NCBI GenBank assembly: GCA_029834535.1
Contig: JAQMWT010000684.1
Location: 62,001-126,000 of the forward strand
Direction of reading: 5' to 3'
DNA: 64,000 bases
From: Chrysophaeum taylorii
Taxonomy: Eukaryota > Sar > Pelagophyceae > Pelagomonadales > Pelagomonadaceae
Shown: piece after piece, positions 11,130-32,362 of the stretch
Numbering within the stretch: position 1 is the stretch's first letter
How the letters are laid out: each line of letters begins with the position of its first letter
Made by a program: the position numbers and the translations under genes
The notes under the pieces: model-generated
What the model saw: only the letters and a program-made list of their open reading frames with translations
Database searches by the model: none
What the model was told of the DNA's origin: nothing

Positions 11130-11292
11130 GGTCTGGTAGAGACCTCGATGCGGTCTAAGATGTGACGAGACCATTCCGCCTCACCATGTGCTACTTCTCA
11201 GGAATAACAGAGTTCCTCACTTCACAGGGGCATACTCCCTGAGAAGCTTTCACACTAGTAGCGAGATACAAAGCTACTGACTACTGAACAAT
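11130..11292 (-). repeat. Diverged LTR-like fragment
   Basis: A block here (gaccattccgcctcaccatg) resembles the corresponding part of the LTRs at 11293-11602 and 24959-25242. It is too diverged and short to delimit. Confidence 0.35.
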
Positions 11293-11602
11293 TGCAGAGC
11301 ATTTAGCATGCAGTGGTAAGTCACCTGGGAAACCATCCCGCCTCATCATGAACGTCTGGAAGGTTAATTCGGGGAATGAAAGGTATGTTCTCTATATCCT
11401 CAGAACACGACAGGCGGCATCTAGAACTACACGAGAAAGGTTAAGTGTATAGTGCTACATACCTCGGGGCGCGCTAGACTGATGATGAGCTTGAGCACAA
11501 GTCAGAGGACTAATTGACTGTGTAGAAAGGAAGAAGAAGGAAAAGGAAGAGATCACGTTCTCAACGGACGGATAAGGGTAAGAGGCATCAGATTTCTCTG
11601 CA
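11293..11602 (-). repeat. 3' LTR of the giant Copia element
   Basis: Starts TGCAGAGCATTTAGC and ends CAGATTTCTCTGCA on the plus strand. It is very similar throughout to 24254-24568, differing by scattered substitutions and small indels. Confidence 0.92.
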
Positions 11603-11612
11603 CCCCCTCGAG
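11603..11612 (-). other. Polypurine tract of the giant Copia element
   Basis: In the sense direction CTCGAGGGGG directly precedes the 3' LTR. The same CTCGAGG(G)n motif precedes the LTR of the second copy (25241-25253), supporting its role in plus-strand priming. Confidence 0.8.
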
Positions 11613-12489
11613 ATGTCTTAAGCGCAAGGTGCGACTATAGAACATCTCTTGAGAAAGATGATGATGAAGGAAAGAAAAAAAGGAGTATACAGTCTTGATG
11701 GTCGCAGAGGTCACATACGAAGCATCAAGAGTATAGAAGGAGTGTCTTAAGGCTTAGGTTTGGTGGAGGAGCTGAGAGTAGATTTGATGCTTTTGACCAG
11801 AACGTTACGAAACACAGGTACAACAGACAGTGTGTTAGGGTTATTTGAGGTGGTAGACATCGTTACTGGTTCGAGAGTGTTGGAATCGTCGTCAGCTTCT
11901 GCTGTAAGGTGGTGAACACCAATAGCTGAATATGGTGTGGTACCATGCGAAATGTGAGTGCAAGTAAAGCATTCAGTATGGATGGAACAAGCGAGTCGAG
12001 TTGTAGGGTGTCCAGTTGGTTTTCCAAGAAGTTGGACTCGGCGAACGGATCCGTGAAGATAGAAGAGTCTTCCGATTCACATGAGAGAGGAATACTCTGA
12101 ATACATGAGAGTAACTTGTCACGCAGATGAAGAAGGTGGTCGTCCGGGGAAGAGTGGTTGGAGGCATGTTGTTCATGAGCGGTTAGTGTTAAGCGAGACA
12201 GCAGCTCTGTGATCTTGTACAGTGTTATAAGTAACACATGAGCGTTGGCTGTAGGAGGAAAGAGCCGGTTCTCCAGGGAGGTGATTGAAGCAATAGCAGC
12301 CTGTAGATCTGTGCGTAGGGACAGATTCTCAGCACTGAGAGCGTTGACCTTGCGAATATGGACTCGAAGAGTTTCCTGGAGCTGTTCGACTTGTTGACGC
12401 AAGGCGTCGAAATCAGCAAGCGAAGCAGAAGACGTAGGATGTGACGATGGCGAAGATATCTCCAGAGTAGGGTCTGGCGTGGAGTGTAA

Positions 12490-12513
12490 GTAGTTTAACG
12501 ACGTTTCGGTCAA
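12490..12513 (-). repeat. TETSLNY boundary motif, site 1 (within 3' region)
   Basis: Encodes LTETSLNY in frame. It is base-identical to the motif at 20835-20858. Confidence 0.9.
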
Positions 12514-13770
12514 CACATGCTGTGTAAGTGAAGGGTATTTCGCGTTTAAAAAGCGCAGAAAGTCTTGATGTTCTGCCTGAGTATAAGTGGGGCCGAACAT
12601 CTCATCCAGGAGTGACGGCGGTTTTGTATCATCTGAAGATGTCACGTAGTCGTCAATATGTTGTACCCAAGATTGAGCAACAGTAGTGACCACATGCTGG
12701 AATCTGGATGGCTTGAACGTAGCCTGAGCTTTGCGACTCTGTGTTCGAACAAGAGTCACAAGGAAATTAAGATGCTCAAGGTGCATCTGTGTTATAAGCC
12801 GAAGATCCAGTGCGAATGGCAATTGTGTGGTGGGATCTGTGGCTATAGCGGATACGGATAAGACCAAGCTAACAAGTGACGGGTGCTGAGCTAACATACT
12901 TGTCAAAAGAGTATATAACTCCCTTGACAAATGATAGACGCGTATGAGGGTAGCGCGTATATGACCAGCTGAGCGCGCATCTCAAGGGAATTGGAAAGAA
13001 GTATCATTGCGAGCATATACGGTAGGTTGCGAAGGCACCTGATCAGTATTTTGACACGCGAAGCACAAGCCAACTGCAATAGCAGAAATGGGGATGTGAC
13101 CATTCTTCTTATGGTCGTCCATGTTGAGGTGACTCAGTACTTTGGTAGGTAGTTCACGAGGCGTTTGCGCCTTGGAACTATACGTGGTTGAGTCGAGGAA
13201 AGTCGGTTGTCCAAGATCATCGAGGCATTGCGTACAAAAGGACGACAAAATGAAACGTTCGCGTTTGGGGCCTCTATAGCAGCCAATAGAAGCAATAGCA
13301 GGAGCAGCTTCCCAAGGGATAGTAATGGGTACACGCATGGATATGAATGTAACCAGTTCCACAAATAATGAAGAGTCATTAGACTCATAAACGGAATGAA
13401 GAGCAGTAAAAAGTTCCACTAGCATAAAAGAAGAGAGAAATGGGGTGACAGGGACACGGTAGTTTTCAACGAGAGAGATTCATCGCTCGTACGCAGCATA
13501 GTCAATGCTGAGGCAGTCTTGGAACGTCAGCGACTGAGGTGAGACATGCACGGCTGGTGTCGGTGCAACCGCAGCAGCCTGTGTGGTAGCAGCAGTCATG
13601 GTTTGTCGCTTTTGCGACAACCTGGGGGAAGGTTTGGCCGTGGAGAGCGAGCGTGGGACTGTCCTTCGAACGACTGGGGAGAAGCCGCGGCCACGGGAGT
13701 GCCAAGAAAAGGACATAGGCGACACTCACACGCACAAAAATATTTGTGGCAAAAGAAGGTAGGGCCAGGG

Positions 13771-13794
13771 CTAGTTTAACGACGTTGCGGTCAC
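13771..13794 (-). repeat. TETSLNY boundary motif, site 2 (RNase H / 3' region)
   Basis: Encodes VTATSLN followed by TAG where the others have a Tyr codon (TAC/TAT). It lies just after the RNase H end. Confidence 0.85.
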
Positions 13795-13809
13795 TAGGGT
13801 TAGGCATCT

Positions 13810-14196
13810 TCAATCCTGTAAAGGCTTGTCATCAGAGGTATGATGCATACCGAGTAGAGAACGAAAAGTGGAGAACTCAGCAGCAAGTGGCTTTGTAAAA
13901 CCATCAGCCACGTTTAGCTTGCCGGGAACATGGTGGACTCGAATTTTCTGTAGCGAGATGTACTCACGGATCTTAAACCATCTGGTCGACAGTGCCTTGG
14001 AGCGAGAGGATCCATCTGGGTCATTAGAGGTGTGAACAGCAGCACCATTGTCAGACAAGAGAGGGAGGCTTCTGATGAAGCGCATATCTTCAACAATTGG
14101 CTTGTCATTGTCATCGAAGTCAACAGGATCAGCGGTGTTCTCACCATTAACATTGTTGACGTAGAAGGTGGGGTTGACGACAAAGGAGAGTTCCAA
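13810..14196 (-). pseudogene. RNase H C-terminal part of the giant Copia element
   Basis: Contains the RNase H segment with an active-site Asp (LSDNGAAV) and the typical closing motif of Copia RNase H (KIRVHHVPGKLNVADGFTKPL in shortened form: HHVPGKLNVADGFTKPL). It follows the previous fragment after a stop that truncates that frame (AVWLR). Confidence 0.85.
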
Positions 14197-14202
14197 CAGC
14201 AG

Positions 14203-14976
14203 CTAGCGTAGCCAAACAGCTTCGTCAGCACAAATACTGAGGGCAATCAACTCAGCTTCGTGAGTTGAGCAGGAGACAATCGGTTGAAGTTTGCTTTTCC
14301 AACCAATAAGGCAGTTGAAAAGATAGAAGACAAACCCGGTGGTAGATTTCCTATCTTCCTGTGCTAAGGAAGGGGCGTTGTCAGCGTCAACCATGGCAAC
14401 TAAGGGGTCAAACTGTCCAGTAGATACATCCTGCGGTTGGTAGTCAACCACAGTAGAGAGATCGATATTAGCGGAAACAGTGCGAAGGTGAGCTTCAATA
14501 GCATTACCTTTAGGATGAAACCAGAGGCGAAGTGAGCGGTTGTCCGGCTTCCTCAGGTAGCGGAGCAGGTGTTCTAGCATCTGGACATGAACGTACGTGG
14601 GTGCATGCATACCACGCGAACATCTGCCCACGGCTTGCGAGAAGTCAGGTCTGCAGGCGACTTGCATGAACACCAGCTTGCCAAGGAGGGTGGCAAAGTG
14701 CGAGTTGATGTACAACTCTGTTTCAGAGCTGGGAGTGCCATCTTCGTACTTGAAGGACGAGGACATAGGATATTTAAGCGGAGTAAGTTGCTGCAAGACA
14801 GGATGATCAGCAACGAGTTCATCAAGCTTGGCTTGCACATCCAGAGAAATGGATCCATCAGATGTACGACACACACGCATACCTAGGAGAGTATAGACAG
14901 GTTCAAACTGCTCTACAGCATACCGTTTGTGGAGGGCTTCCTGTAACTCAGTACGAAGAGTGTCATCATTGGACAC
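14203..14976 (-). pseudogene. RT C-terminal part and RNase H N-terminal part of the giant Copia element
   Basis: A 257-codon frame with the RT connection region (MRVCRTSDGSISLDVQ, YPMSSSFKYEDG) and the RNase H start (VDADNAPSLAQEDRKSTTGF, then CSTHEAELIAL), giving the first two catalytic acidic residues. Just upstream the RT active-site strand reads SVDHIVIVSND, whereas Copia RTs have YVDD. The second catalytic Asp is His and a frameshift separates this part from the RT body. Confidence 0.88.
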
Positions 14977-15095
14977 AATAACAATGTGGTCTACAGACAG
15001 ACTGCATACGACGAACTTAGCCTGTGCGGATACTCGAGCATATAGGAGTCCGAATGCAGGCGCTTGTAGCCAAGGCTACAGAAGAAGCCGTCTAT

Positions 15096-16400
15096 CTATT
15101 TGTTCCAAAGAGATGGCGATTGCCGAAGTCCATAAAGTGACTTCAGCAGTTTCGGTAGGCGTCGGCCCTTGTAGTTAGCGTCATCGGGGTCGATAAGCTT
15201 GATGCCGTCTGGTAACTGAACGTAGACGTTGGCATCAATGTCAGACTGAACGAAGGCGTTCGGGACGTCTGCGTGGTAGACAGGCAATTGCTTGTATGCT
15301 GCAATCGCCAGTAGTACCCGGATTGCGGTCATTGTGGCCATTGGGCTGAAGGTGCCAAAGAAATCGGCGCCAAAGGAGGCTAGGAAGTCACGTAGCACGA
15401 GGCGAGCCTTGTGCTTAACGTATTTGCCTGCAGAGTCTGTTTTAATCTTCAGCACCATCCTGCAGTCAATAGGACGAGAAACACCGTCGGGTAATGAAAG
15501 CTTGAAGCAGCCAAAGCGGACAATGTCGTGGAGTTCCTTGGCGATGGCCTTGAGGTAGGCGTGCCTGTCTTCAGGCGACATACCGTGGAGGCACTTGAGC
15601 CTGTATTCGTCGATGGAAACGTCCGCTTCTTGGACCTTGTATTCATCAGGACCAACAGTGGCTGGTGAACTATAGTTTAAAGACGTTGCGGTCGAAGCAG
15701 TGTGCGCGAATTCGTGATATGCGGAAACAGCGCCAGTAGGAGGGGTAGAGGAAGCAGATTCCAGTTGAATATGGATAGTAGGGTCGGCATGTAAGACCTG
15801 AGTGATATACTCTGTAGAGACCAGAAGGTATTCCTCCAAGTCAGACAGAGATGCAGAATTAGCGCCAAACTCGGAAGAATTGTGATCGATAAAGCTGGTC
15901 GGCGCCAGATACGAAAGTGCATACTGTAATGAAGAGATGCCAAAGGCAGCGGCGTGCTCAGTGAACGCAGCTAAAAGAGGCTGAGAAATGGAGCGCGCAG
16001 GTGAACCATCAGCAGTTAGAAAGGTTGCGGCTGGGATGCTGGATGCGCACTTAGCGCGGGCGAAGTGACCATCGACGTGAGGGTGACGGGCAAGTAAGTC
16101 AGTGCGCAACGGGAGAAGAAGACGAGCTAACAACGCATGTTCCCCATCTGAGCAGATAGCAGACCAGAGGATACCACCATTGATATGCAGGGCGGAGAGG
16201 GCGGGAGACTTGAACGTAAGAAAGTGGTGGCGAAGATCCCAGCGGAAATCGGCGAGTTTGCCACCAGCGGCTTTGTAAGCACCAATAGTAAAAGCTTGCA
16301 GCCGGGCTTGGATATTTTTCATGGAGGTTGCCTTGCGGTTGTTAGGAACCTGGGACAAGAACGAGGTCATCTTGTGCAAAAAGGTCTTTGTAAGAAGGAA
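15096..16400 (-). pseudogene. Reverse transcriptase body of the giant Copia element
   Basis: Copia-type RT (RVT_2): KHKARLVLRDFLASFGADFF, FSPMATMTAIRVLLAIAA, VYHADVPNAFVQSDI and KLLKSLYGLRQSPSLWNK are all recognisable. The frame is open to 16862, but only the part up to about 16350 is RT-related; the rest is a shadow of the integrase tail. It ends at a TAG right after LWNK. The S-L-N-Y boundary motif at 15672-15695 lies just before the RT domain. Confidence 0.9.
15672..15695 (-). repeat. TETSLNY boundary motif, site 3 (integrase / RT)
   Basis: Encodes STATSLNY in frame immediately before the RT domain. Confidence 0.9.
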
Positions 16401-16554
16401 GCAAGGGCGGCGGTGGCATAGAGCCAGAATCGTCGACGGGAGCGTCGGAAGGAGGAGGAGAAGCAGGAGCAGGGGACGAAGAAGGAGCTGAGGGAGGTGG
16501 AGAGTGCCCCCTCTGAGGATGAAGTGTCCGTGTCCCCCTCTGAATGTAATGGTC

Positions 16555-19368
16555 TTAGATAGCAGCGTGGGGTGTGAGCGAGAAAGGCGCGGGAGGAGCG
16601 TGAGGCGGAGGGGCAAGTTCAGGATCAGGAGTAGGATGCTGGAGCATGTAGAGGAATTGCAGCTTGGACGAAACACGGATCTGTCCGTTTTCAGGGTTGA
16701 TGACGACGTCGGCAATACGGTCAACACGTGGGGAGACGAGCGGGTTTTGCGCGTTGGCGCAACATAGATATAAGTACTTACGGCGGCACGGTTCCCACCT
16801 GTGGTGCTCGTGGGGTTCCAATAGAAGGTAGCATTCAGCGCCGAAGATCTTGAGCATGTCATGCTGGGAAGTGCTCAGTTGATTGTAGAGTAGCTGTTGC
16901 GGACTCAGGATAGCATGGTGAATGCGCTCGAGCGTGGCGTTCGGGAGAAGGTTGTAGCTTTGGATGTTGTGTATCACCGCCCAGGGAAACATGATGGCTG
17001 GTTCCACGATCTTGGAGTCACGATAATGAGCATTAAGGAGAGAGCGAAGGCGAGTTGAGGAGGCGGAGGCGATGAACCCGATGGCTGACTCAACTTCAAA
17101 GTTAAAGTGGTGCATGTACGGAGGGAAAGCGATGAGCTGATTGCCCTTATCGACGCGGTTCGGGGCGGTAATGTGCTGGCTAAAATAGGGCTTGAAAGCA
17201 TCGGAGTAGAGGGTGCGCAGGTGCACGTTGAGTTGTGTACGACAAAAGTCATACACAAAGTCCAGAGCTTGAGTGAACTCCGTGGCGTTGGTGGTGCGTG
17301 TAAAGTACACCAAGAGAAACTTCGAGATAAGTTCCTTGAACACAATGATATGGGTGAAGCCTCCCCACTCTGACGGAATTGTCACATAGCCGCCGTCGCA
17401 CGCCCAGACTTCGCCGGCTTTGTGAGTTTGCTCAAAAGAAGGCTTGGTCGGATTAAAGTGTTTGTGCGGGTGGCGCTTGTTGTGCGCGATGCAGTCGGTG
17501 CATAAGTCGCGATACTGTAGATCTGAGGCAGAGAAGCCAGGGCGAGCCAGTACGTTGGGGGCCTTGGCTGCAACGTTGTCGGGGCAGTGGTGCACCCGGT
17601 GGAAGCGATTGGCACGTTCTTTGGCGTTGAGATATTCAGCAGATCCGTGTGCGAGGGATTTGCGAGGAATGGGATGAGCGGGGATATGACGTTTGCGCCG
17701 AACATCGAACTTGAGTTCGGTGTCCAAGGCAGGAGGAGGCGGTGCGTCGTCATCCTGGTGCGCAGCAGGGTCACTTGGAGGTGCATCCTCATCATCACAA
17801 GTAGCGAGAGTATCTTCGTAGGATGACGAAGGCATATAGTTTAACGACATTTCGGTCAAGCAGTTGCTGGAGATAGAAGTCATGAAGGCTTGTGCCAAAG
17901 ACAAGGTATCTGTGCTGCACGTGGTGGAGGCTGGATCAAAGGTCATGAAGGTGGATACATAGGATTTCTTCATCACGGCAGCAGCATGTTGGAAGGTAGG
18001 GTCCAACATAAGGGACTTAATATCGGCAACGAGGAGCGAGAGGTGCTTGTACAGTGTGCTGTACGTACCGGCAGGCAGAGCATTGCTGAGCATGTCACAG
18101 CAAAGGTCGTGGCGAAGAGACAAGAGGAAAGATTCCTGTTGTTTGGTGTGGTTGTTAGCACGAATCAACTCCGGTCGAGTGGGATAGCGTAATTTCCCGT
18201 TGCGAGGGTCGAGTAAGATAATGTTTGCATACCCTCGGACGGTGGGCAATGGAGCAAGCATGGAGTGGATTTTAGAGCCGAGTTTGCGGTCACTTCCACG
18301 AAGATACCCTATATAGCGACTATGGGACAAGTGGTGATCTTCCAGAGCAAAATGAGAATCCTTGTAGTCGAAAGAATTGTCGGTGGCCTTGTAGGTAAGG
18401 CAGCCAGGCATCACAAGAGAGCATCTGGACAAGAGCTTTTGTATGGCAGTGCCATAGGCGGCAGCGGAGCCAACTTGAGGAAGGGCTTGGATGATCCACA
18501 AGAAACCCATAAACGGCTCCAAATATACAGATCTGTCTCTGTCGCGGGGGACGTTGGAGGCAGTAAACGTATACGTGCTTCCAAACGCGTCAATGGAAGC
18601 ATGATATTTGGTGGCGGCGTTTTCTATGGTGAGGTTGCCGTCAGTGTGGTGGCCACCGGTTAAGAAGTAGGTGTTGTGTGATGTTGATGAGGTTGTAAGT
18701 AGTAACCTATGTGACGGTTGGTCAGTTTCGAAAACGGTTATGTAATAGGACACAGGAGTGGGTGAGTTAGTGTGCAATCTGGCAAACAAGTTATATAATA
18801 TGGTGAAGGCCTTGACACGCAATGGATTAGTTGCATGTGGCAGTGGTTCCATGGAGGAGCGTTTGAAACACAGCTGATGATAAGTACACTCGGATTGAAC
18901 AGAGTGCGTGCGTTGCTCGTGAGCCTGTTGTGAGTGAAGGCGGAGAAATAGTAAATTGAGTGTTTCAAGGTCAGTCATGGTAAGCTGAACAGAACCTGTG
19001 CGAGAGTAAGGTGCAAAAGTTTTAGGAACGGGGACATCTGGTGGATCGGGGAACACCCGGATCCAGTCTTTGGCGATATCTTTGGATAGCCAAAGTCGTT
19101 TAGGAATGGCTTGTATGTCATCCACGATCTTAAAGAAGGGGCGTGGGTGGTGGATAGGCCATGAGAGTATGTTGATTGGTCCAGTAGAATACCTGCGTGC
19201 GATGCAGATCCATCTTTCCCTAGATTGGTAGTCGCCACATAGGTAGGTCGGGAACCTGTCAACAACATCAACACAGTAATCGAGTGTGGAATGGATGAGA
19301 TTGGCCACAGTTATGTGGTCTTGATGACAGTACTTGTGGGGTGGTGTCATCTCAGCCAGTAGTACCAA
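16555..19368 (-). pseudogene. C5-methyltransferase C-terminal half, unknown region and integrase of the giant Copia element
   Basis: An open frame of 937 codons. Its first 45 residues carry methyltransferase motif VI (LLAEMTPP in place of ENV) and motif VIII (GDYQSRERWICIAR; consensus Q-x-R-x-R). About 400 residues of unrecognised sequence follow, then the boundary motif LTEMSLNY (17836-17859). The integrase then begins with an H-H-C-C zinc finger (FHRVHH ... LCTDC) and a DDE core: ACDGG, then LYSDAF, then FEVESAIGFI. The frame stops at TAA after HAAI, although integrase-frame sequence seems to continue to about 16350, so the stop is probably a mutation. Confidence 0.88.
17836..17859 (-). repeat. 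TETSLNY boundary motif, site 4 (before integrase)
   Basis: Encodes LTEMSLNY in frame between the unknown region and the integrase. Confidence 0.9.
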
Positions 19369-19824
19369 GGGTTGGAGAAGGTTGATGACAGACAGCGTGC
19401 TGTCGTAAAGGGAGTCGTCGAACAGGCTGTGTAAGTCTTCGGTCTTATGCTGCGTTAGTAGATTCCTGTTAGTGCATGGAGGAGTTATCTCGATAATATC
19501 ACAATAAAATTTGCGCCTTTCCTCTGGTTAGATTTGGTGAAGATGGTTGATAAAGGCGGGCAAAGATTCAAATAATAATACTGTAGGAAAACTGTGGCGT
19601 AACATGCGCACAAGAGTTTCATCAGACTCAACAACAACTTTTACGTTGATATTTAAGCCTAGGTCATTAGTGGCTTGAGACAGGAACGCTGGGGTTAACA
19701 AACCAGAACAAGTAACATGACAGAGGGTTTGCGAAGATTGGGCTCTTGTGAGAGAAACACTGGGCGTGAAAGCATTCATGTTAATGGTTGGGTATTCTGC
19801 TGAACAAATTTGTTCTGTTTCCAA
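19369..19824 (-). pseudogene. C5-methyltransferase N-terminal half of the giant Copia element
   Basis: Motif I is VTCSGLLTPAFL (second Gly of the usual F-x-G-x-G lost). Motif II is VVVESDE, with an acidic residue at the SAM-ribose position. Motif IV is DIIEITPPCTNRN, with the catalytic Cys codon at 19474-19476. Spacing between motifs fits bacterial and eukaryotic C5 methyltransferases, and motifs VI and VIII follow in the same frame at 19368 and below. A single TAA at 19528-19530 interrupts the domain; the second element copy has a sense codon there. A frameshift just before motif I separates it from the protease frame. Together these data identify a cytosine-5 DNA methyltransferase inserted between protease and integrase. 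Confidence 0.85.
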
Positions 19825-21908
19825 AGATTAAGAACCAAAGGGCGAATCCACGGGCGATCTGGTAAAACTCTCTTGAGGAGATAGTTATAATATGCCAGTA
19901 GATCCCTGTTTTCGTGGTATCGTTCGAGCGGAAATGCGAGGGAGCGTAGTTCGAGTTGCTTGTCGCGGGCGATGTTGTAGGTGAGACAAGGGAGAGCAGG
20001 CAAGTTAGATGCTACGTAATGTATGGGAATACGCACATCTTTGTCTATGCGGCTCGTGACAGCGCTGAGCTTTGGCTCAGATCGATCACTGAACACAGTG
20101 GTCAAGTTCGTCTGGTTCCACTCGAGCATGCTCAATATAGCGAGATGTCGGTTGTGTACTGGTTTAAGACATAAAGCGAAGTCAATCTTCACGTAACCGA
20201 TTTGTGGATGATCTGGTAGTGGAACAACAATGTTACGTGTTAACATCATATGGGAGGCACGTTGTTGTCCAGTGGCAGTTTGTATAATAATCGGTGCGTA
20301 TTTGGGATCCAGTGGAATAATATGATTCGGAATTGCGTAGTCGTAGCTGGACATTAAAGATATGGTAGCACAAGAGTCAAAATATAAAAAGGAACAATGT
20401 TGGGGAACACTGTTTACCTTCATATATTTCGTTAGAAGGGCATTTTCCGAATGCGGGCAAGTAGTGGAGCGACTGGCAGTGAAGAAGTTATCCAGAAATA
20501 AAAGGTTATTTGGAATGATAACCGGTTGAACAGGTGGTGATGGTTCGTCAGCCTCATCAGCCATGCCGTACTTCTCATCAAATGATGATAGCGAGGTCTT
20601 GTCGACATCCCTTGTGGTTTCGGCTTGTGGTGGTTGGTTCATGGCTGATTGGGCCTGTGAAGATAGCGAGGACAGTAACGCTGGTGGTAACGCCGAGATG
20701 GCGGAAGCAGTAAAGAGGTTAGGCACTATATCAGAGGGGTTACCCTGTGTGTTGGAGGCATTCTTGGTATCTGTAGTAGGAGGTGTTGCCTTTGGCGTGG
20801 GAGCAGTGGCAACAGTATGATGTTGTGGCTCCACGTAGTTTAACGACGTTTCGGTCAAGGATAGATGAACGTCTACATCAAAAATGATGTCTTCTGCGAA
20901 CATGAGTCGTTCGTTTAGACGAAGTAAGTCACCATTGTCCTCAGTGGATGTGGTTGATAGAATATCGGCGGATTGCAACAGAGTTTCAAACAACTTGGTG
21001 ATGTTCTGTTGTAGCTGAGCCGTGATATCATTATCTGTCACATGCCTTGTAAGTTCACTACACTGCTCTTGCAGTGTATTTATGGTGTGCTTAGTTCGAT
21101 CTAATAATTTCATATTAGATCGAGAGGACCTGTCGAAAGTGCGAGAGTAAATTGGATGGTCATGGGACTGTCCAGCAGTTCTCTTGGTGACATAAGAATC
21201 ACCAGAACGGTAATACGATAAGTCGCTGCGAGAGAAAGGCTGGCGTGCATCGTTAGAGTTACGCAAGCGTCTAGCGTTAAACGCGGAGGATGTTCCAGGT
21301 TGAGAAGAAGTAATGGACGCAAGAGCATTTGCAGTTTGAGTCAGACTTTTGTCTGATAGATCCAGCGTGTTTGTAAGTAGTAATTTCGGTTTTGGTTGTG
21401 GTGTCAAACCTTCAACGTAAGGTTGCCAAGAAACAGGGCGTTCTAAGCGTCTTTTGTTCGACCTATCTGATACTACATTATACAAGTCTAATGCGTATTC
21501 TAAGATATAGCTAGGGTTGGTAGGATGACACAATCGTTCAGCGTCTGGCACAGGCCGAGATGAAGATCGAGTTTCATACATATAACACCAGTCTACCCAA
21601 CCACGATCGTAACGATTGTTGCTGGTATTATCGGCATAATGCCGATGTATCTCTTCATAATTTTTTCTACAAAGAGTACCAAAGTCGAATTGAAGGTCAG
21701 TCTCTTCCTGGTTAAGTTGGTAAGAGATTTGCCTAAATGCCAGGACAGCTTCAATAAAGACATGGACATACCAGTTAGGATTACAAACAACAGAGTTAAA
21801 CTGCTGTTTCAGGTAGGATACATCAGTACTCGTAACAGACTCGTAGTGACTAAAGGCAATGAGCATAATGGCGCGAGCCTTGTTGGGCAAATAACTTTTG
21901 TTATACAC
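19776..21908 (-). pseudogene. Gag C-terminal part and aspartic protease of the giant Copia element
   Basis: A 710-codon frame. Residues 1-350 are Gag-like with basic and helical segments; a coiled-coil stretch (INTLQEQCSELTRHV) precedes the boundary motif LTETSLNY at 20835-20858. An acidic/Pro-rich linker follows, then an aspartic protease with active site FLYFDSCATISLM (the usual D-S-G replaced by D-S-C) and a downstream ATGQQRASHMML strand. The frame ends at TGA after QPLT. The first codons are not a natural start: Gag continues upstream across the insertion at 21916-23038. Confidence 0.85.
20835..20858 (-). repeat. TETSLNY boundary motif, site 5 (Gag / protease)
   Basis: Encodes LTETSLNY in frame between Gag and protease. 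Confidence 0.9.
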
Positions 21909-21916
21909 AAGTGCAG

Positions 21917-22250
21917 GCCAGTAAGTTCACCTAGTCCCAATCTCTAACCCCAGTAAGTTCACCTGGTCCCAGTAAGTTCACCTGGTCAGTAAGTTCACCT
22001 AGTCCAAATCTCTAACCCCAGTAAGTTCGGCGCAAACCCACTCGTGCTCACACCACTCCTTCGAGCTCGTCGCTGTCGCCTCCGCCAATCTAAGCTGCTT
22101 CGATCTGCACACGCCGCTAACCTTTGAGTTTACTCTAAAACCCCCAGTAAGCTCACCTGGTCCCAGTAAGTTCACCTGGTAACTATATTCACCTAGTCCC
22201 AATCTCAAAACCCCAGTAAGTTCACCTGGTCCCAGTAAGCTCACCTACAG
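21917..22250 (-). repeat. Array of a 19-20 bp repeat, CAGTAAGTTCACCTGGTCC
   Basis: About nine imperfect units in two blocks (21917-22030 and 22143-22250), some separated by AATCTCTAACCC-type spacers. Between the blocks, 22031-22140 resembles sequence following the repeat at 8202-8286. Confidence 0.85.
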
Positions 22251-22514
22251 TGCGCGTGTAGACGCCGGGAGGGGGGTTATCGGTATTGCGCAGCACGTGT
22301 GGGGTAGGGTGGAGTCGTCGACTCAGAAGAGCATATTCTCGGGGTTGCAGATCGACAGAGAGCCACGTAGAGCTGGACGTGACAGAAGACGGGCTTGTGG
22401 GCAAGAGGACGCGGACCTCGCGGGGCGTCTGGCCTGGCTCTTGTTGATCGTTTCGCGTAGGCGGGCCTTAAGGGATACAGGTTGGAGGAGCCTCGGTGAC
22501 AACGACACGATCAA

Positions 22515-22838
22515 TCATGTATCTGGTACCGTCGCAGTGGCCGTGCGACGGGTCGAGGTTGCGAAGACTTTAAGCTCGCGATCAAAGTCAGCATCCCGTT
22601 GGTTGTCAGGGAGTTGAAAACTCGACTGTAAAGAGCGAGGCGCCGGCTTCCGACCCAAACCTAGTCGGCCGAAAAGAACTCCGACGCCTCGTCTCCGGGA
22701 AAAAAAGGCCGCGGTCATGCGCGCGTTGTCAGCATCGACAACATCGTTTCGACGGGGCGTGAGAATGGCGCGCTGAAAGAGCCGCCGCGGGTCGTGGAAA
22801 TAGTCTGCGAGGTCGCCGTAGACGGCTTCGAGGATCAA
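22515..22838 (-). pseudogene. Pif1/Helitron-type helicase fragment
   Basis: A 107-codon frame with YGDLADYF, then HDPRRLFQRAILTPRRNDVV and DADNARM. This resembles the 'R-A-I-L-T-P-x-N-x-x-V-D-x-x-N' segment of Pif1-like helicases, including those of Helitrons. Nothing upstream or downstream completes a helicase. It indicates DNA captured from a transposon or host gene before insertion into gag. Confidence 0.5.
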
Positions 22839-22924
22839 TGGCTGGCTCGCGGGCCTACCTGATCCTTACCCTAAACCGGGGGACAAACAAGCAAACAAAC
22901 AGACAGACAGACAGACAAACATCT

Positions 22925-23038
22925 GGTCCCGCGTACTTATCTCCGCCCGTCAGGCACATCCCTCATACCCCACAAACCCACCCACATCCTTCATGGTCCC
23001 CCCACACACCCCCCTCTTAGCAGTCGACATTTAAAAAT
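22925..23038 (+). mobile_element. 114-bp short element with 12-bp target duplication
   Basis: Starts ggtcccgcgtacttatctcc and ends cagtcgacatttaaaaat. Directly flanking it on both sides is agacaaacatct (22913-22924 and 23039-23050). A second copy in reverse orientation lies at 53548-53644. The ends are not inverted repeats, so a small retroposon-like element is more likely than a MITE. Confidence 0.75.
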
Positions 23039-23039
23039 A

Positions 23040-23729
23040 GACAAACATCTGTCGATTAGTAGTAAGGACCTCATTGATGGCGGGCCAGGCCGCAAGTGCT
23101 GGTTTTCCAACACTTTCAAGACTGAAGTAAGTATGCAAGAATGTAGCATACGTGTTCTGATAAGTGTGCCAATCAGCAGCAGTTAGCGAGAACATGGTAA
23201 CAGGGGCACGAACACGGGTGTCAAAAGCTAATGCTTTCGGGTGCGCGCGATTTAAGATTCGTTCCTCTTCTAAGAAACGAACATTGATTTCAGGGCGTAA
23301 TGCCTTGACTTCATTGTCGTAACAGAGAGTAGCTAGCTGAGCTACTTCTGTGTCAGTTAAGTCGGGGAAAGCTTCATTGGTGAAGTGCCGTTCCTGATAC
23401 TCAGGGGGCAATTCATCAACAGCTAAATGGAGATCAGCAGCCCTATCGGTCTTCCATTCCAGGAAAACGCGATCGAGAATTTGATTCCGAAAGATCTCGT
23501 AGTCCTTGCATGACCGAGTGTATGCTTCGTACGAGTCGTACTCGAGGAAGGCATCGGCATGACTGGACCGTAATAATTGTTTAATATGCTTGATTTGCAA
23601 GGACACCTTGCGAGTTTGAAGCTGAAATCGATTTCCTTCGTTGAGAAACTCAACTACAGGAGCTTCGAGCTTCAGTATGTCCGCACCTGTGATCGCCTTG
23701 GGTGCGGCTCGTGCTGCGTGTTCTGCCAT
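23040..23729 (-). pseudogene. Gag N-terminal part of the giant Copia element
   Basis: A helical Gag-like protein starting at ATG 23729 (MAEHAARAAPKAI); the frame is open back to 23819 but without an ATG there. It is cut by the insertion at 23038. Features include KVSLQIKHIKQLLRSS and the PEYQERHFTNEAFPDL stretch; no zinc knuckle is seen. Confidence 0.7.
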
Positions 23730-24238
23730 AGCAGTTGACGGGGAACCTGTGGGTTCAGTCGCGCAGTTGACACTGTCTAGACATTCTAAGGGGGTCTGTC
23801 TATCGGTGTCTATGTACACTCATTCGTTATCGATGGAAAGACGTCTATTTGACGACTGTGCAAGCTGTGAGTCCAGAGTAGTGTCGCTAAGCGTAGTCAC
23901 TCATGGCAGCTGGTTTTTTTTGGTGCTCTCAAGGAGCTTGTTAGGTGCATTGCCAGGGAATGTACGAGTGGACGTACCCAAAATATTCCATAACATGTGT
24001 GCAAGAGTACAGGTTAGCCACTTACGCACGCACATCAACATTAACATGACAACACGATACTATGAACAGGTGCACACAAGGTTACACGATCATGTGTGCA
24101 AAATATGCTATATACAGCCCAATGGTAATGGCGTTGTATAAACAAGCGTGTTTGCGTGGCGAGGCTGGACTGGCGCGGTAACAGTCCAAAACCCATAGGT
24201 TACGTGCACGCTTTAACACATGGCTTCTCAGGGACCCG

Positions 24239-24253
24239 CCTGGGCCCATAACC
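24239..24253 (-). other. Primer-binding site of the giant Copia element
   Basis: The plus strand reads CCTGGGCCCATAACC and abuts the 5' LTR end at 24254. This is the anticodon arm of eukaryotic initiator tRNA-Met (CTGGGCCCATAACC), not its 3' end. A primer ending there would be a 5' half-tRNA, as known for Drosophila copia. Confidence 0.8.
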
Positions 24254-24568
24254 TGCAGAGCATTTAGCATGCAGTGGTAAGTCACCTGGGAAACCACCCC
24301 GTCTCATCATGAACGTCTGGAAGTTTTTAATTCGGGGAATGAAAGGTATGTTCCCTATATCCTCAGAACACGACAGGCGGCATCTAGAACTACACGAGAA
24401 AGGTTAAGTGTATAGTGCTAAATACCTCGGGACGCGCTAGACCATGATGATGAGCTTAAGCACAAATCAGAGGACTATTTGATTGTGTAGAAAGGAAGAA
24501 GAAAGGGTAAGGAAGAGATCACGTTCTCAACGGGCGGATAAGGGTAAGAGGCATCAGATTTCTCTACA
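24254..24568 (-). repeat. 5' LTR of the giant Copia element
   Basis: Matches the 3' LTR at 11293-11602; its right end reads TCTCTACA where the other LTR has TCTCTGCA. Confidence 0.92.
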
Positions 24569-24569
24569 A

Positions 24570-24958
24570 TAGGACTCTGTATCTTACGGCACGCAGGGTG
24601 GAACAATCCAAGGTTGGAAGGTGAACCAGACGAGGATAATTGTCTTAGTCGAATTTGCAAGCGGAAGGAAGGAGGTTTGAATTTTGAGGGAACGCCGTGA
24701 TTAAGACTCGGAGAGTAAATCCTCAAGAGAAGAGAAGTAAGGAGTGGTCCTGTGGACCAGAAGTGGGGTGTTGGAGTACCATAGAGTCGTATACGATATG
24801 GGCATAACTCTCTGGACCTAGAAAGATCGAGTGTTGTCGTGTTATCATTATCCTTCTCCAAATTATTGCGAAGAGAAGTAATACTAGAAGTGGTAGTGCC
24901 GGTGACAAGAAGTAATAGGAGGTATCGTCATCAACAGAAACTCCAGAGGATTACGGAG
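24570..24958. other. Spacer between the two giant elements
   Basis: No recognisable gene. A minus-strand frame (24861-24475) is open for 128 codons but resembles no family and runs into the LTR. Confidence 0.35.
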
Positions 24959-26499: not shown

Positions 26500-27700
26500 C
26501 CTATTGACTGCAGGAAGGTGTTACAGGTACTCTGAAAGTCTCGCTCACTGAGAGCCAGAGTCTATGTACGTGTTGAAGTCGAAGGTGAGGCAGTTAGAGA
26601 GCGTAAGTGTGAGGGGATTACGTTCTTTGACCTTTACAGCATCTTCCGTTCTACGACTCAGTGAAAGTCTGTGAGTATGCCACCAGCGGCTTTGCACGTA
26701 CCAACAATAGAAGCTTGGAGGCAAGCAGTGATGTACTGCATAGACGCGGCTTTGCTTTTGTTGGGGCGTCGAGGACCTGGTTGAAGTTCGAGATTATCTT
26801 GAGTGAAAAGTCCCTTGTAAGATGGTAGGAGGGGTGGTGGCTAAACGGTTTATCGACAGTGGAAGGAGTGAGCGGTGTAGTGTCTGCAGGTGACGTGGAC
26901 GTAGGGTGATGTGAAAACGGGAGGAGGAGCAGGAGCCGGAGAGGGATTTTGAGAGTTCACTCCTCTAAGTTTGATTCCCCCTCTGCAATGCGTCATCGGG
27001 GTCATCTTCTTTTTCGGGTGTTATGTCGAAAGTGACGGGCGTGAGCGTCAGGAGGAGGAGCATGTTCAAGATCGAACGTGTACGTGGAGTGTAATTTAGA
27101 AGAGACACGGATTGCCCGTTCTCAGGGTTGAGAACGACGTCTGCATGATGATCAACACGAGGAGCCATAAGTGGGTTAAAAGCGTTAGCGCAACAAATGT
27201 AGAGATATGAAGCGCCGTACTTGTGCTGTTCACGAGGTTCCAATAGCAGGAAACACCCAGCCCCAATTTTTTTCAGGTTATCATGTTGGGGCGTTATTAA
27301 CTCACTGTATAGGAACTGTTGTGGGCTAATGATTGCATGATGGATGCGTTCAAGCGATGCGTTTGGGACCAAATTGTAGCTTTGCACCGTATGAACCACT
27401 GCCCATGGGAAATGAATGGTAGGCTCTACGATTTTCGCGCCTTTGTCTTGAGCATTGAGAAGGTTGCGAAGCCGTGTAGCAGAGGCAGAGGCAATGAAGC
27501 CAATAGCCTGCTCGACTTTATGGTTAAACACATGAAGGTAAGGCGGAAATGCGATGAGGTTGATACCTTCATCAACACGAAAAGGAGCTGTAATGTGTTG
27601 ACTCAGGTACGGTTTGAGAACGCACCGGAATAAACGGTCCGAAGGTGGACGTTATGTTTCGTTCTACAGAAATTGTAGTGAGAGTCCAAAGCTTGGGTTA
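26500..27700 (-). pseudogene. Integrase tail and RT leader remnant of the second copy
   Basis: A 188-codon frame (27531-26965) matches the first copy's integrase end nearly residue for residue (KVEQAIGFIASASATRLRNL, HAIISPQQFLY). From 26960 to about 26500, short matches to the pre-RT region of the first copy (around 16260-16400) remain. Confidence 0.8.
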
Positions 27701-28100
27701 GTTCAGTTGCGTTGGTCGTTCTCGTGAAGTAGGCCAGCAGAATGGCACCAAGTAGATAGCTTTTCTTCGGAATCGACAAGAGAAGTGAGGGAGTAGGTCA
27801 TGCCAAGAGCGTGTATGGATGTCTTACTTGGTAGACCTTTTTGTGACAAGGAGATTACCGTCAATGTGTTTACCTCTCTAGTTATAAAATAAATGTTGTG
27901 ATTGGAGGTGGAGTATATGAGAAATAACCTGTTAGTACATTGGTTAGTTTCGAAAATCGTGCTATCGTAGGACACGGGGGTTGGAAGATTAGGCAGAAGC
28001 CTAGAAAGATGCTGGAAAGCAGGGTGAATGCTTTCAAGCGACTAGGATTGGCAGCATTCGGCAGATGTGACGTTGAGTCAAGTAAGAACCCTGGATGATG

Positions 28101-28983
28101 CTAAGTGCACTCAGGGTGCGAGTCGTGTGTGGATTGTTCCATAGCTTGCTGGGAATGTAGCCTGAGAAAAAAGAGATTTAAGGTCTTTAGTTCATGCAAA
28201 CTCAGCCGTGTACACTGTGCGAGATAAGGCTGGGAAACCCGTAGGTGAAGAGACAATGGGTGGATCTGTAGAGACTCGGGCCCAGTCCTTTGCGAGATTC
28301 TTTGACAGCCACAACTGTTTTTGGTATGGCAGAGAGATCGTCTGCTATGTTCATGAGCTGCTTTGGATGTTGATTTGGCCAGGAAAGGACGTTGAGGTTG
28401 CCGGTGTGGTATCTGCGTACTGCAGATCCATCTTTCCCGAGCCTGAAAGTCTCCGCAGAGGTATGTCGGAAAGCGGTCGACAACATCCATAGCGTATTCA
28501 AGTGTGGAGTGAACTAAATTGGCTACGGACACATTGTCCTTACACATGGCGGGGTCATCTCAGCAAGCAGGACCGGGGGCTTGATTAGTTTGATAACAGA
28601 AAGAACACTGTCAAACAAGGCATCATCGAGTACATTTTCGACAGTTCAATAGTCTTGGAATTCTTGATTAAATTGCGGTTCGTAGAACGGGGGGTTACCT
28701 CCACGACGTCGCAGTAGAATTCCCGCCGTTCAGACTCAGAAATGGAATGTAAATGGTTAATGAAGGACGGCAAGGATTTAATGACGAATATATTCGGGGA
28801 ACGTCGGCGTAACACTCTTGCTAGAGCATCATCAGACTCGACAACAACTTTAACATTGATGTTCAAGGCTAAGATTGTGTCAAAAAATGCGGGAGTCGAC
28901 AGACCAGAACATAGCAATATGACAGAGGGCTTACGCGACTGACCGTATTCTATAGAAAGGAACACTGGTCGAGAATTCGGTCA
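28101..28983 (-). pseudogene. C5-methyltransferase remnant of the second copy
   Basis: Motif I is VILLCSGLSTPAFF and motif II VVVESDD. The motif IV region reads VTPRSTNRN, so the catalytic Pro-Cys of the first copy is Arg-Ser here. Motif VIII is GDFQARERWIC. Motif I follows an in-frame TGA at 28981-28983, aligned with the TGA that ends the protease frame of the first copy. Confidence 0.8.
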
Positions 28984-29610
28984 CGTGGGAGGCGTCGAGT
29001 TGTTGCGCACAAACTCGTTGTTCTGCCGTATGTTAAGTAGAAGAGGCGAAGCCAAGGGTGCACGGGTAATTTGCGCATTAGATACACGTAGTACGCGAAT
29101 ATTATTTCACGATTGTCATAGTACCGTTTTATTTTAAGGGAAACATCAAAGAGCGCAATTCCATGTTGCCATCGCGAGCCAGAGTGCACGGTATACAAGG
29201 CAAAGCCGGCACGTCATGATCTACAAATCATGTTAGTGGGTACCTTAACATCTTTGTCGTGTTCACTTGTGACAAAAGACGAGTAAGGCAGCTCGCTGCT
29301 GTTAAGAGTAATTGTCAAACGAACATTGTTCCATTCGGATGCCGACAAGATAAACAACCGACGACCATGTATACCTTTCAGAAAGAGAGCACAATAAATC
29401 TTCAAATATCCGACCTCGGGATGAGACGGAAGCGGCGAAATGATGATGATCTTGACGAACGTAATATCGATGAGACACTTGCTGTTGACCAGTTGCGGTT
29501 TGAACTACACAGGTGCAATGCGAGAATAAAAAAGGGACGATATGCTCATTAAAAGCGCAATCAAACGTGGTCATCAGTGATATTGATGCGCGCGAATTGA
29601 GAATGATCAG
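28984..29610 (-). pseudogene. Protease region remnant of the second copy
   Basis: Scattered frames match the first copy's protease (QTATGQQQVSH; later LNIRQNNEFV, which matches LNLWKQNKFV at the protease end). The active-site strand itself is not recognisable. Confidence 0.65.
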
Positions 29611-29745
29611 CAGCTAAAAATGTGGAGGTAGTTTGTTGTCGCGCATGTACTTAGACAGGAGAGAGCATGCTCGGAATTTGCGTTGGTTGAAAAGACACTT
29701 GCGGCATACAGCGTGGGTTGGGCCAGTAACTTTGGAGACACAATT

Positions 29746-30500
29746 TTACACGAATAAAGATGTTAGGTGTGAGAAGGACAGGTGCAAGTTCGTTGTTGCC
29801 ATAACCGACTCCATTCTGTATATATCAAAATGCGAAAGTCCTGAGTCCGGCTGCCAGTTGGGTGCATTGTGTGAATCAGAAACATGTTGTTGCTGTTCGT
29901 TAGCACGGCATAAAGCGGCAGTTGCATGCGTAGACAAGCGTTGAAGTTCATCCGTAGGCAGACGAGCTATGGCGTCTTCTTCTGTAAAAGGCAAAGGGGC
30001 GTGTGCGACAACAGTAGCACCATCGGGGCTTAGTGGAGCATTCGGCGTCTGGGTAGAGACCTGGTTGGCACGTTGGTCTACCCCGTCGTTAAACAACGCT
30101 TCGGTCGACGTAAGTAAGATGCGTGTGTACGTCATCACGAACGATACCAACAGCATAATAATAATCCAGATGGTCATAGAGTCGGAGCACGTCCGTATCT
30201 TCGTCGGAAGAAAGCGTAGCGATGGCATCTGATGAGAGCAGAAGAGTGTTAAGAATTTTGTCGATGTTACTTCCTGCAACTGCGTTGTAGTGCTGTTGCG
30301 AGGTGCATGACGCGATAACTCCTTTAAGGAACTGACCGCATGATGCATAAGTGCGATCTGACAGCTTCGTGTCAGAACGAGCAGGGAGGTCAAAGGTAAG
30401 CGCATAAACAGGTTTGTCGTTGGATTGGCTATCGGAATGTTTGGTGACGTATGAGCTGCCATCACGGTAATAGCTCAGGTCACTACGAGCAAAAGATGAC
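29746..30500 (-). pseudogene. Gag remnant of the second copy
   Basis: A frame of 239 codons with the diverged boundary motif LTSTEALFND at 30085-30108, where the first copy has LTETSLNY. A short stretch near 30440-30500 matches the nucleotide sequence of the first copy around 21180-21240. Confidence 0.65.
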
Positions 30501-31109: not shown

Positions 31110-32261
31110 CTACTTTTTGTCCTTTGGTTTCCAGATTTGGTCGGCGAGCGAGTAGAGAAAAACGCCGCCGATCCCGATCGTGCAGCCAAGCAATTTGAGG
31201 GGGGCGAGACTCTCGCCGAGGACCAGAGCGACCCCGACGATGACAATGACGCGCTTGGCCGTGTTGGCGACGGACTGCGTGACGGCCGAGGTTTTTTTGA
31301 TGGTCATGGTCGCGAGCTCGTTGTAGCCGTAGAACCAGAGGCCCGAGGCGAGGGTATTGAAGCGGACGATGGGATTTTCGTTCCAGATCTTGACGAAGCC
31401 CCCGAGCTTGTGGCCTTCCTGGAAGTAGACGAGGGGAAGCGAGAATAAGAAGGCGAGGATCGTGGTGAGGGCAAACTGGTTTCCGACGCTTCCGAGGCGT
31501 TCCTTGATGCCCGGGGTCGTCATGAGCTTTGAGTTTTCGTTGGCCTTGAAGGCCGCGAAGAGGTTTGCGATGGAGGCGGCGATGAGGGCCGAGACGGCAA
31601 AGTCGAGCTCCTTGAGGGACGCGAGGACGACGCCGCCGATGACGGGAATGAGGCAGAGCCACTTGGCTTTAGATATTTTTTTTCCGTAGAGCAGCGTGCC
31701 GACGACCGCGGCGAACGCGGGCTCGGCAGCCTTGACGATCTGGCCAAAGCTAACGGCGCCCGCCGAAAGCGCGAAGACGCTGCCGGCGTGAGCTCCCGCG
31801 GCGCAGAAGGCGACCGGGAGAATCTTGAGGATGTCGAGGGGCTTGATTCGCGGGAAGGACCGCGCATCGGGGGCGATCCACAGGAACAAAGCGTAGATCG
31901 ACCCGACGGCGAGCTGCGTGGTAGAGATCGTCATCGGATACCCGGCAGCTCCGCCGGCCGCGTTGAGCGCGAGTTTGTTCGAGATGTTGTAGTAGTAGTT
32001 CCCGAGGTACCAGAAAAAAAAGTACAGGAGCAGGGGAATGTCCACGGGGAGCTTGGTCTTTTTCTCCTCGGTGCCCGTCGTCACGGCGCTCGCGCTCAGG
32101 ACGGTCGGCGGCTCGCCGTAGAGGCTCAACTGTTCGGAGAACACAGTTGTCGGGTTTTTGTTTATGCGGCGTGCTGCCGGGGGGCGGACCCGCGTCCGCG
32201 GGACCACCACCAAAGCCGCCCCACTCCCCAATAACAACGAAACGAAGAAGAAGAAGCGCAT
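31110..32261 (-). CDS. Plastid-type sugar-phosphate/phosphate translocator
   Basis: A 383-residue member of the triose-phosphate/phosphoenolpyruvate translocator family (DMT superfamily) that exchanges phosphorylated C3-C6 compounds for phosphate. Family hallmarks are GQIVKAAEPAFAAVVGTLL and SVANTAKRVIVIVGVAL, which carry the substrate-binding Lys and Lys-Arg. About eight to ten hydrophobic helices span residues 75-375. The N-terminus (MRFFFFVSLLLGSGAA, then a basic stretch) is a signal peptide followed by a transit-like region, consistent with one of the outer or inner membranes of a complex plastid. Exact substrate cannot be read from the sequence. It is encoded 102 bp downstream of the EF-hand gene on the same strand. 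Confidence 0.93.
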   Translation of the reverse strand: MRFFFFVSLLLGSGAALVVVPRTRVRPPAARRINKNPTTVFSEQLSLYGEPPTVLSASAVTTGTEEKKTKLPVDIPLLLYFFFWYLGNYYYNISNKLALNAAGGAAGYPMTISTTQLAVGSIYALFLWIAPDARSFPRIKPLDILKILPVAFCAAGAHAGSVFALSAGAVSFGQIVKAAEPAFAAVVGTLLYGKKISKAKWLCLIPVIGGVVLASLKELDFAVSALIAASIANLFAAFKANENSKLMTTPGIKERLGSVGNQFALTTILAFLFSLPLVYFQEGHKLGGFVKIWNENPIVRFNTLASGLWFYGYNELATMTIKKTSAVTQSVANTAKRVIVIVGVALVLGESLAPLKLLGCTIGIGGVFLYSLADQIWKPKDKK

Positions 32262-32362
32262 GACGACGACGACGAGATCGCGCGCTACTGCAACTTGGCG
32301 CTTGAGGTTGAACTCTGAGCGTCACCAAACCCGAATGAGAAGACGTAAGTCCGTTGAGAGAG

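Follow-up and report, generated by a model that had tools for sequence, protein, structure and literature searches.

The window analysed here, a stretch of 64,000 nucleotides from the pelagophyte Chrysophaeum taylorii (contig JAQMWT010000684.1, positions 62,001 to 126,000), contains on its minus strand a decayed Copia retrotransposon with long terminal repeats (LTRs), whose pol opens with a domain that profile comparisons relate to C5-cytosine methyltransferases. On balance we consider it somewhat more likely than not that this Copia pol carries an enzyme which is made by read-through of a UGA stop codon, is packed into the particle and marks newly made DNA. What the sequences of the family document is the structure of the element, the homology of the domain and its position between protease and integrase, its copy number, the persistence of its catalytic Cys and Glu, the purifying selection on it, and the conservation of the UGA. 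Elements of the window's kind are referred to as type A, and those of a second Copia lineage, in which PF00145 can be recognised at the corresponding position, as type B.

Relatedness of the domain to C5 methyltransferases

In the window copy five motifs follow one another on the minus strand, namely motif I (CSGLLTPAF, 19710-19684), motif II (VVESD, 19635-19621), motif IV (ITPPCTNRN, 19488-19462, with the Cys at 19476-19474), motif VI (LLAEM, 19362-19348) and motif VIII (QSRERWI, 19227-19207). The preliminary description had reported these motifs in this order and co-oriented with protease and integrase, as the coordinates read off the sequence bear out; the interval it assigned to the domain, 19369-19824, is too short, since motifs VI and VIII fall beyond it.

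A profile of type A retrieved two outside homologues from the protein database, P0001 and P0002, of which P0002 matches PF00145 above the Pfam cut-off and P0001 just under it. PF00145 was also matched by five of five type B members, and a type A profile including the outside homologues aligns with type B over 205 columns (E 6.5e-8). Amongst the structures of the PDB, a mixed profile of both types finds a cytosine methyltransferase (1.8e-6) and M.HhaI (0.0022), and type B alone finds M.HhaI (E 0.039), while P0002 alone had no match there. Less firmly, a fold search with a weak model points to C5 methyltransferases, DNMT2 being listed among other C5 enzymes. No homologue of type B was found in the protein database at E ≤ 0.001 with either the polyprotein region or the domain alignment as query, a search to be judged insensitive, since ordinary C5 methyltransferases also failed to appear. 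Viral contigs yielded no homologue of type A or type B, and prokaryote genomes, searched with type A, no type A homologue. As far as can be judged from the outside homologues and the match between the two types, the domain is homologous to C5 methyltransferases, albeit divergent in type A, so that the assignment first made from the letters of the window holds, as does the placement between protease and integrase.

Distribution in the genome

A 209-aa piece of the type A domain has at least 150 matches in the genome (151 found; best 150 of 946 candidates scored), with at least one pair, C10 and C297, that looks like an assembly duplicate. With P0001 as query at least 105 places were found among 1056 candidates; 25 of them overlap the type A domain list, and a third lineage, represented by L080 and L081 (45-56% identity with type A over the compared parts), probably accounts for many of the remainder. 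For type B there are at least 135 matches (125 of 646 candidates scored), some of which are pieces of one copy. The genome search with PF00145 gave at least 57 places (123 of 474 candidates scored), of which 55 are type B, 50 by overlap with listed type B matches and five by matching type B directly. These counts are lower bounds, and a host gene cut by introns could escape the PF00145 search.

Elements free of the domain were sought solely among places selected by their reverse transcriptase (best 150 of 1670 candidates). At 61 of these 150 places a listed domain match lies upstream: 47 have a type A match on the same strand at a distance of 2.5-7 kb, usually about 3.4 kb, and a further 14 places have a P0001-query match, usually at about 3.1 kb. 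The other 89 have no upstream domain match among the matches listed, and of 16 sampled from these, ten hold parts of motifs I to VIII (L080, L081, L082, L084, L086 and L088-L092), three the tail behind the domain only (L087, L093, L094) and three no trace of it (L083, L085, L095), which may be due to indels or loss. With at least 150 type A matches, 61 of 150 reverse-transcriptase places, and domain or tail at 13 of the 16 sampled others, the domain belongs to the element family, as had been proposed; the accompanying question of members lacking it has a divided answer, given the three places without any trace.

Catalytic residues and selection

The 30 type A loci compared were all picked by similarity of the domain; for type B, 25 of 26 loci were long enough, representing 24 distinct copies because L025 and L054 refer to a single place. 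The catalytic Cys of motif IV (TPPC) is kept in all 30 type A copies and the Glu of motif VI in 29, though there the motif reads EMT, whereas in type B both residues are present in 25/25 rows, with E and N of motif VI likewise in 25/25. Motif VIII (QxRxR) retains its Q in 29, its first R in 28 and its second R in 30 of the 30 type A copies; in type B a K replaces the first R of Q.R, and the last R is kept in 25/25 rows. Both outside homologues keep the motif IV Cys, AEMTPP and Q.RERW.

Among the type A pairs with dS >0.03 and a computable ratio (373 of 435), the median ratio of non-synonymous to synonymous substitution rates (dN/dS) is 0.19; for type B, where 296 of 300 pairs were used, it is 0.15. 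In L055 compared with L056 and with the window copy, respectively, dN/dS of the domain is 0.086 and 0.095, i.e. about 0.09. The integrase core has 0.070 and 0.055 in these two comparisons, the reverse transcriptase 0.143 and 0.151, and the linkers 0.13-0.18. Because dS ranges from 0.12 to 0.55 among the regions, the copies may be of mosaic origin. By these rates the domain is clearly under purifying selection, of the order of that on the other pol enzymes.

The gag-pol junction

Of 34 distinct type A copies extending to the junction (two duplicate rows being counted once), 33 end gag-pro with UGA and one has UGG. The frame 3' of the UGA continues into the domain in most copies examined, the window copy and L049 being exceptions. 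The codon following the UGA (n = 33) is ATG in 13 copies, CTA or CTG in 13 and ATA in seven, and since it varies, a start codon is not a common feature of the junction. Reinitiation at an AUG 3' of the UGA was accordingly rejected as a general rule, ATG coming next in 13 of 33 copies. That UGA is an amino-acid codon is unlikely as well, as we infer from L056, whose frames of 960 aa and 1154 aa, although divided by a UGA, contain no such codon themselves. A CUA after UGA is known as a leaky context. L057, a copy of type B, has gag and pol in different frames that share 37 bases, an arrangement suggestive of a frameshift.

The Candida retrotransposon Tca2 is Ty1/Copia-like. According to the pertinent passage of PMC2194720 it has a UGA between gag and pol, and the present element resembles it in having this stop between two open reading frames (ORFs), but differs in that a protease-like part lies in ORF1 before the stop and the methyltransferase-like domain opens ORF2.

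Structure of the window element

The order of parts in the element is the gag-protease ORF1, the UGA, the methyltransferase-like domain, integrase, reverse transcriptase and about 2 kb of short frames, with the following features in the window:

11293-24565, minus strand: decayed Copia LTR retrotransposon, with LTRs and a 5-bp target duplication
24566-24570, minus strand: target-site duplication, 5' side (ATTGT on the minus strand)
24254-24565, minus strand: 5' LTR, 94.2% identical to 11293-11599 across 312 columns
24238-24253, minus strand: likely primer-binding site, adjoining the 5' LTR
19776-23819, minus strand: gag-protease ORF1, split by an insert at about 21906-23067; a single 960-aa frame in the relative L056
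21906-23067, no strand assigned: nested insertion in gag of about 1.2 kb, related in sequence to the pol end of L056
19776-19778, minus strand: UGA separating gag-pro from pol, a TGA conserved among type A copies
19085-19775, minus strand: C5-methyltransferase-like domain with motifs I to VIII, at the start of pol (end approximate)
19528-19530, minus strand: in-frame TAA breaking the domain in the window copy
17176-17424, minus strand: integrase core (rve; PF00665, E 0.006, under the Pfam cut-off)
14803-15494, minus strand: reverse transcriptase (RVT_2) in two frames (PF07727, E 3.3e-25 and 4.4e-5)
11860-13480, minus strand: short-ORF region 3' of pol, homologous in a second copy (C42)
11293-11599, minus strand: 3' LTR, paired with 24254-24565; LTR length about 310 bp
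11288-11292, minus strand: target-site duplication, 3' side (ATTGT)
26545-30474 (about), minus strand: second, more decayed element of the same kind, with a methyltransferase remnant at 28101-28980 (ends approximate)

The RVT_2-type reverse transcriptase, the integrase upstream of it, the LTRs and the short target duplication confirm the initial classification as Copia. In relatives PF07727 is matched with E 7.7e-42 (L055) and 1.6e-38 (type B), and rve precedes RVT_2 in the same frame in L055, L057, L080 and L081, with scores all under the Pfam cut-off (E 0.003-0.011), SH3_retrovirus being above the cut-off in L080. The pol of L080 also shows a tandem doubling of a stretch near the C-terminal part of the integrase. 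An LTR 93% alike to the 5' LTR of the window terminates another copy (L096). Allowing one mismatch at most, the genome of 70.8 Mb has 314 occurrences of the 16-mer of the likely primer-binding site, versus two of the reversed control; the 16-mer is presumably complementary to the anticodon arm of initiator tRNA-Met. In the ORF1 region there was no Pfam match for gag or protease, and these names therefore rest on position and motif; the canonical protease motif is D[ST]GA, where the protease-like stretch of ORF1 has FDSCAT. The insert in gag contains internal repeats, and its kin at the pol end of L056 marks it as a separate sequence that is mobile or repeated. The region 11860-13480, which lies between RNase H and the 3' LTR, appears coding-like, with 76-89% DNA identity in pieces to the C42 copy, and is possibly a third ORF.

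The window copy is old and broken: its LTRs are 6% apart, its methyltransferase part has the TAA and a frame change, located between the end of gag-pro and motif I, and the pol frame has breaks. Its reverse transcriptase site reads SVDH, in place of SVDD in L055 and SADD in L056. The second element has motifs I, II and VIII, as described previously; its motif IV reads TPRSTNRN, without the Cys. Apart from the elements, the window contains a gene of the triose-phosphate-transporter family (31113-32321, minus strand; PF03151, E 2.1e-86), which would suit a photosynthetic host.

Methyltransferases of the host

The two PF00145 places that are not type B are a DNMT2 relative (L001), whose best PDB match is DNMT2 (E 7.7e-39), and a DNMT5 relative (L002; PF00145 E 5.4e-18), whose sole PDB match is Rad8 (E 2.1e-143), one of the match entries, 7r78, being named DNMT5 in the fold search. 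No stand-alone DNMT1, DNMT3 or DNMT6 is among the at least 57 PF00145 places, though an intron-cut gene could be missed. In the yeast Cryptococcus DNMT5 is a maintenance enzyme. Passages of PMC3145265 report it in diatoms, a pelagophyte and green algae.

Comparison with known systems

Retrotransposons carrying methyltransferases are already known, insofar as the pertinent parts of two papers describe them. De Mendoza 2018 (PMC5890265) reports DNA methyltransferases (DNMTs) in LINE, DIRS and Gypsy elements, with KnitGypsy-Dnmt3, SymbioDIRS-Dnmt3 and SymbioLINE-Dnmt as named examples; de novo CG methylation was shown in yeast for the DIRS enzyme, while the LINE and Gypsy enzymes gave no clear result when tested, and the Copia elements of Symbiodinium are stated to be without any DNMT domain. 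As in the named examples, the present C5 methyltransferase-like domain lies in the coding region, is under purifying selection and keeps its catalytic residues, but the carrier is Copia, unlike the Gypsy, DIRS and LINE carriers of that paper, protease and integrase flank the domain, and type A is highly divergent. A 2025 paper in MBE (PMC12344493) names LTR Copia and DIRS elements with embedded DNMT3 in streptophytes and dinoflagellates, citing the 2018 paper, where the charophyte carrier is a Gypsy element. The likeness of the present element to this mention lies in the Copia carrier. In the consulted part of a survey of microeukaryotic DNMTs (PMC9998398) no retrotransposon-borne one was noticed, and a Sola DNA transposon is described in PMC12477816 as carrying a different methyltransferase. 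Titles and abstract openings of the open-licence literature yielded no report of the present element; new here are the Copia carriers described, the divergent enzyme, the two lineages and the UGA junction.

Interpretation and alternatives

Under the favoured interpretation, the UGA would be read through at a low rate, making the methyltransferase the first part of pol and limiting its amount in the same way as that of integrase and reverse transcriptase, with which it would be packed in the particle. There the enzyme might methylate new cDNA, ahead of integration or in its course, or act on the flanks when the element integrates, so that a copy would arrive with cytosine marks which the host DNMT5 could then copy. 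It is the conservation of the UGA that suggests the read-through step, the later ones being what we infer beyond it; that the Copia-borne domain methylates cytosines in DNA is likewise a presumption.

Several results have to be set against this interpretation. The profile search suggested by the preliminary description fails for the window copy, whose pieces match no methylase in Pfam at E ≤ 1 or in PHROGs at E ≤ 10, and for the type A members, none of four matching PF00145 at E ≤ 10, and succeeds for their relatives, type B and P0002; by themselves, the window letters are therefore poor evidence, and it is the relatives that decide. Without the outside homologues, the comparison of type A with type B is not significant (probability 1.4, E 0.036), and the PHROG match of L036 and L047 is weak (0.011 and 0.0031). 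The fold model is poor (mean predicted local distance difference test score 41.4, predicted template modelling score 0.41), and six of the 50 Foldseek rows listed for this low-confidence model are other S-adenosylmethionine-dependent methyltransferases. Canonically, motif I has a second Gly and motif VI reads ENV; type A lacks the former and has EMT for the latter, and motifs IX and X and a target-recognition part were not recognised downstream, where profile matches stop near motif VIII. The low dN/dS of the domain owes something to a high dS, its dN (0.039 and 0.052) exceeding that of the integrase core (0.033 and 0.027) and the reverse transcriptase (0.017 and 0.030). Finally, in long copy pairs the excess of C/T differences at CpG is weak (window copy against L055 15.2%, other contexts 9.9-12.9%), and domain-level pairs show no such excess over other contexts. 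This lack of strong methylation-linked CpG decay argues against heavy CG marking, or for another context; the CpG observed/expected ratio is 0.90 in the element and 1.26-1.27 in the window flanks, which differ in base composition.

A chance resemblance of an unrelated pol domain is very improbable: the window pieces have no profile match and the type A profile ranks a chance-like proteasome chain (E 0.045) above the methyltransferases of the PDB (0.079 and 0.16), but sequence searches via relatives and, with the weak model, fold searches point to C5 methyltransferases. It is unlikely that type A is catalytically dead and has a structural or nucleic-acid-binding role within pol, as might be thought from its divergent motifs I and VI and from the missing Pfam match in four of four members, for the motif IV Cys persists in all 30 copies as well as in the two outside homologues, which also keep AEMTPP and Q.RERW, and dN/dS is about 0.09. 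We give only a small chance to the idea that the domain is a C5-methyltransferase relative now methylating RNA (that of the element or the tRNA primer) and not DNA. The C5 enzymes do include RNA methylases such as DNMT2, motif VI of type A is altered, and RNA methylation is raised for the LINE-borne enzyme in a passage of PMC5890265; however, the mixed profile places DNMT2 chains (E 0.089-0.21) behind M.HhaI and DNMT1, DNMT2 is absent from the PDB matches of the type A profile and of type B alone, and type B keeps PCQ and ENV. The fold search, which has DNMT2 in its list too, tempers these objections.

As to the origin of the domain, separate capture by type A and type B, instead of a single one in a common ancestor, is conceivable but the less expected course. 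In its favour is the identity of 20-21% in the aligned domain compared to 38% in the reverse transcriptase, whereas the shared place between protease and integrase and the 205 aligned columns (E 6.5e-8) speak for one event. The proposal that Copia pol carries a DNA-methylating enzyme could be extended to these enzymes being the main source of de novo cytosine methylation in the host, with DNMT5 maintaining the marks made by the elements; this extension, suggested by the finding of DNMT2 and DNMT5 relatives as the only stand-alone C5 enzymes in the PF00145 search, we regard as doubtful.

Cytosine methylation by the host commonly silences mobile elements, which makes elements that carry a methyltransferase puzzling, and the Copia lineage adds a further class of carrier. 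C. taylorii, whose genome has copies or fragments in the hundreds and a DNMT5, with DNMT1 and DNMT3 not found by the PF00145 search, offers a clean setting for the question of whether the parasite, and not the host, writes the first marks; from its sequence, the Copia element may be a parasite that marks its own DNA inside its host.
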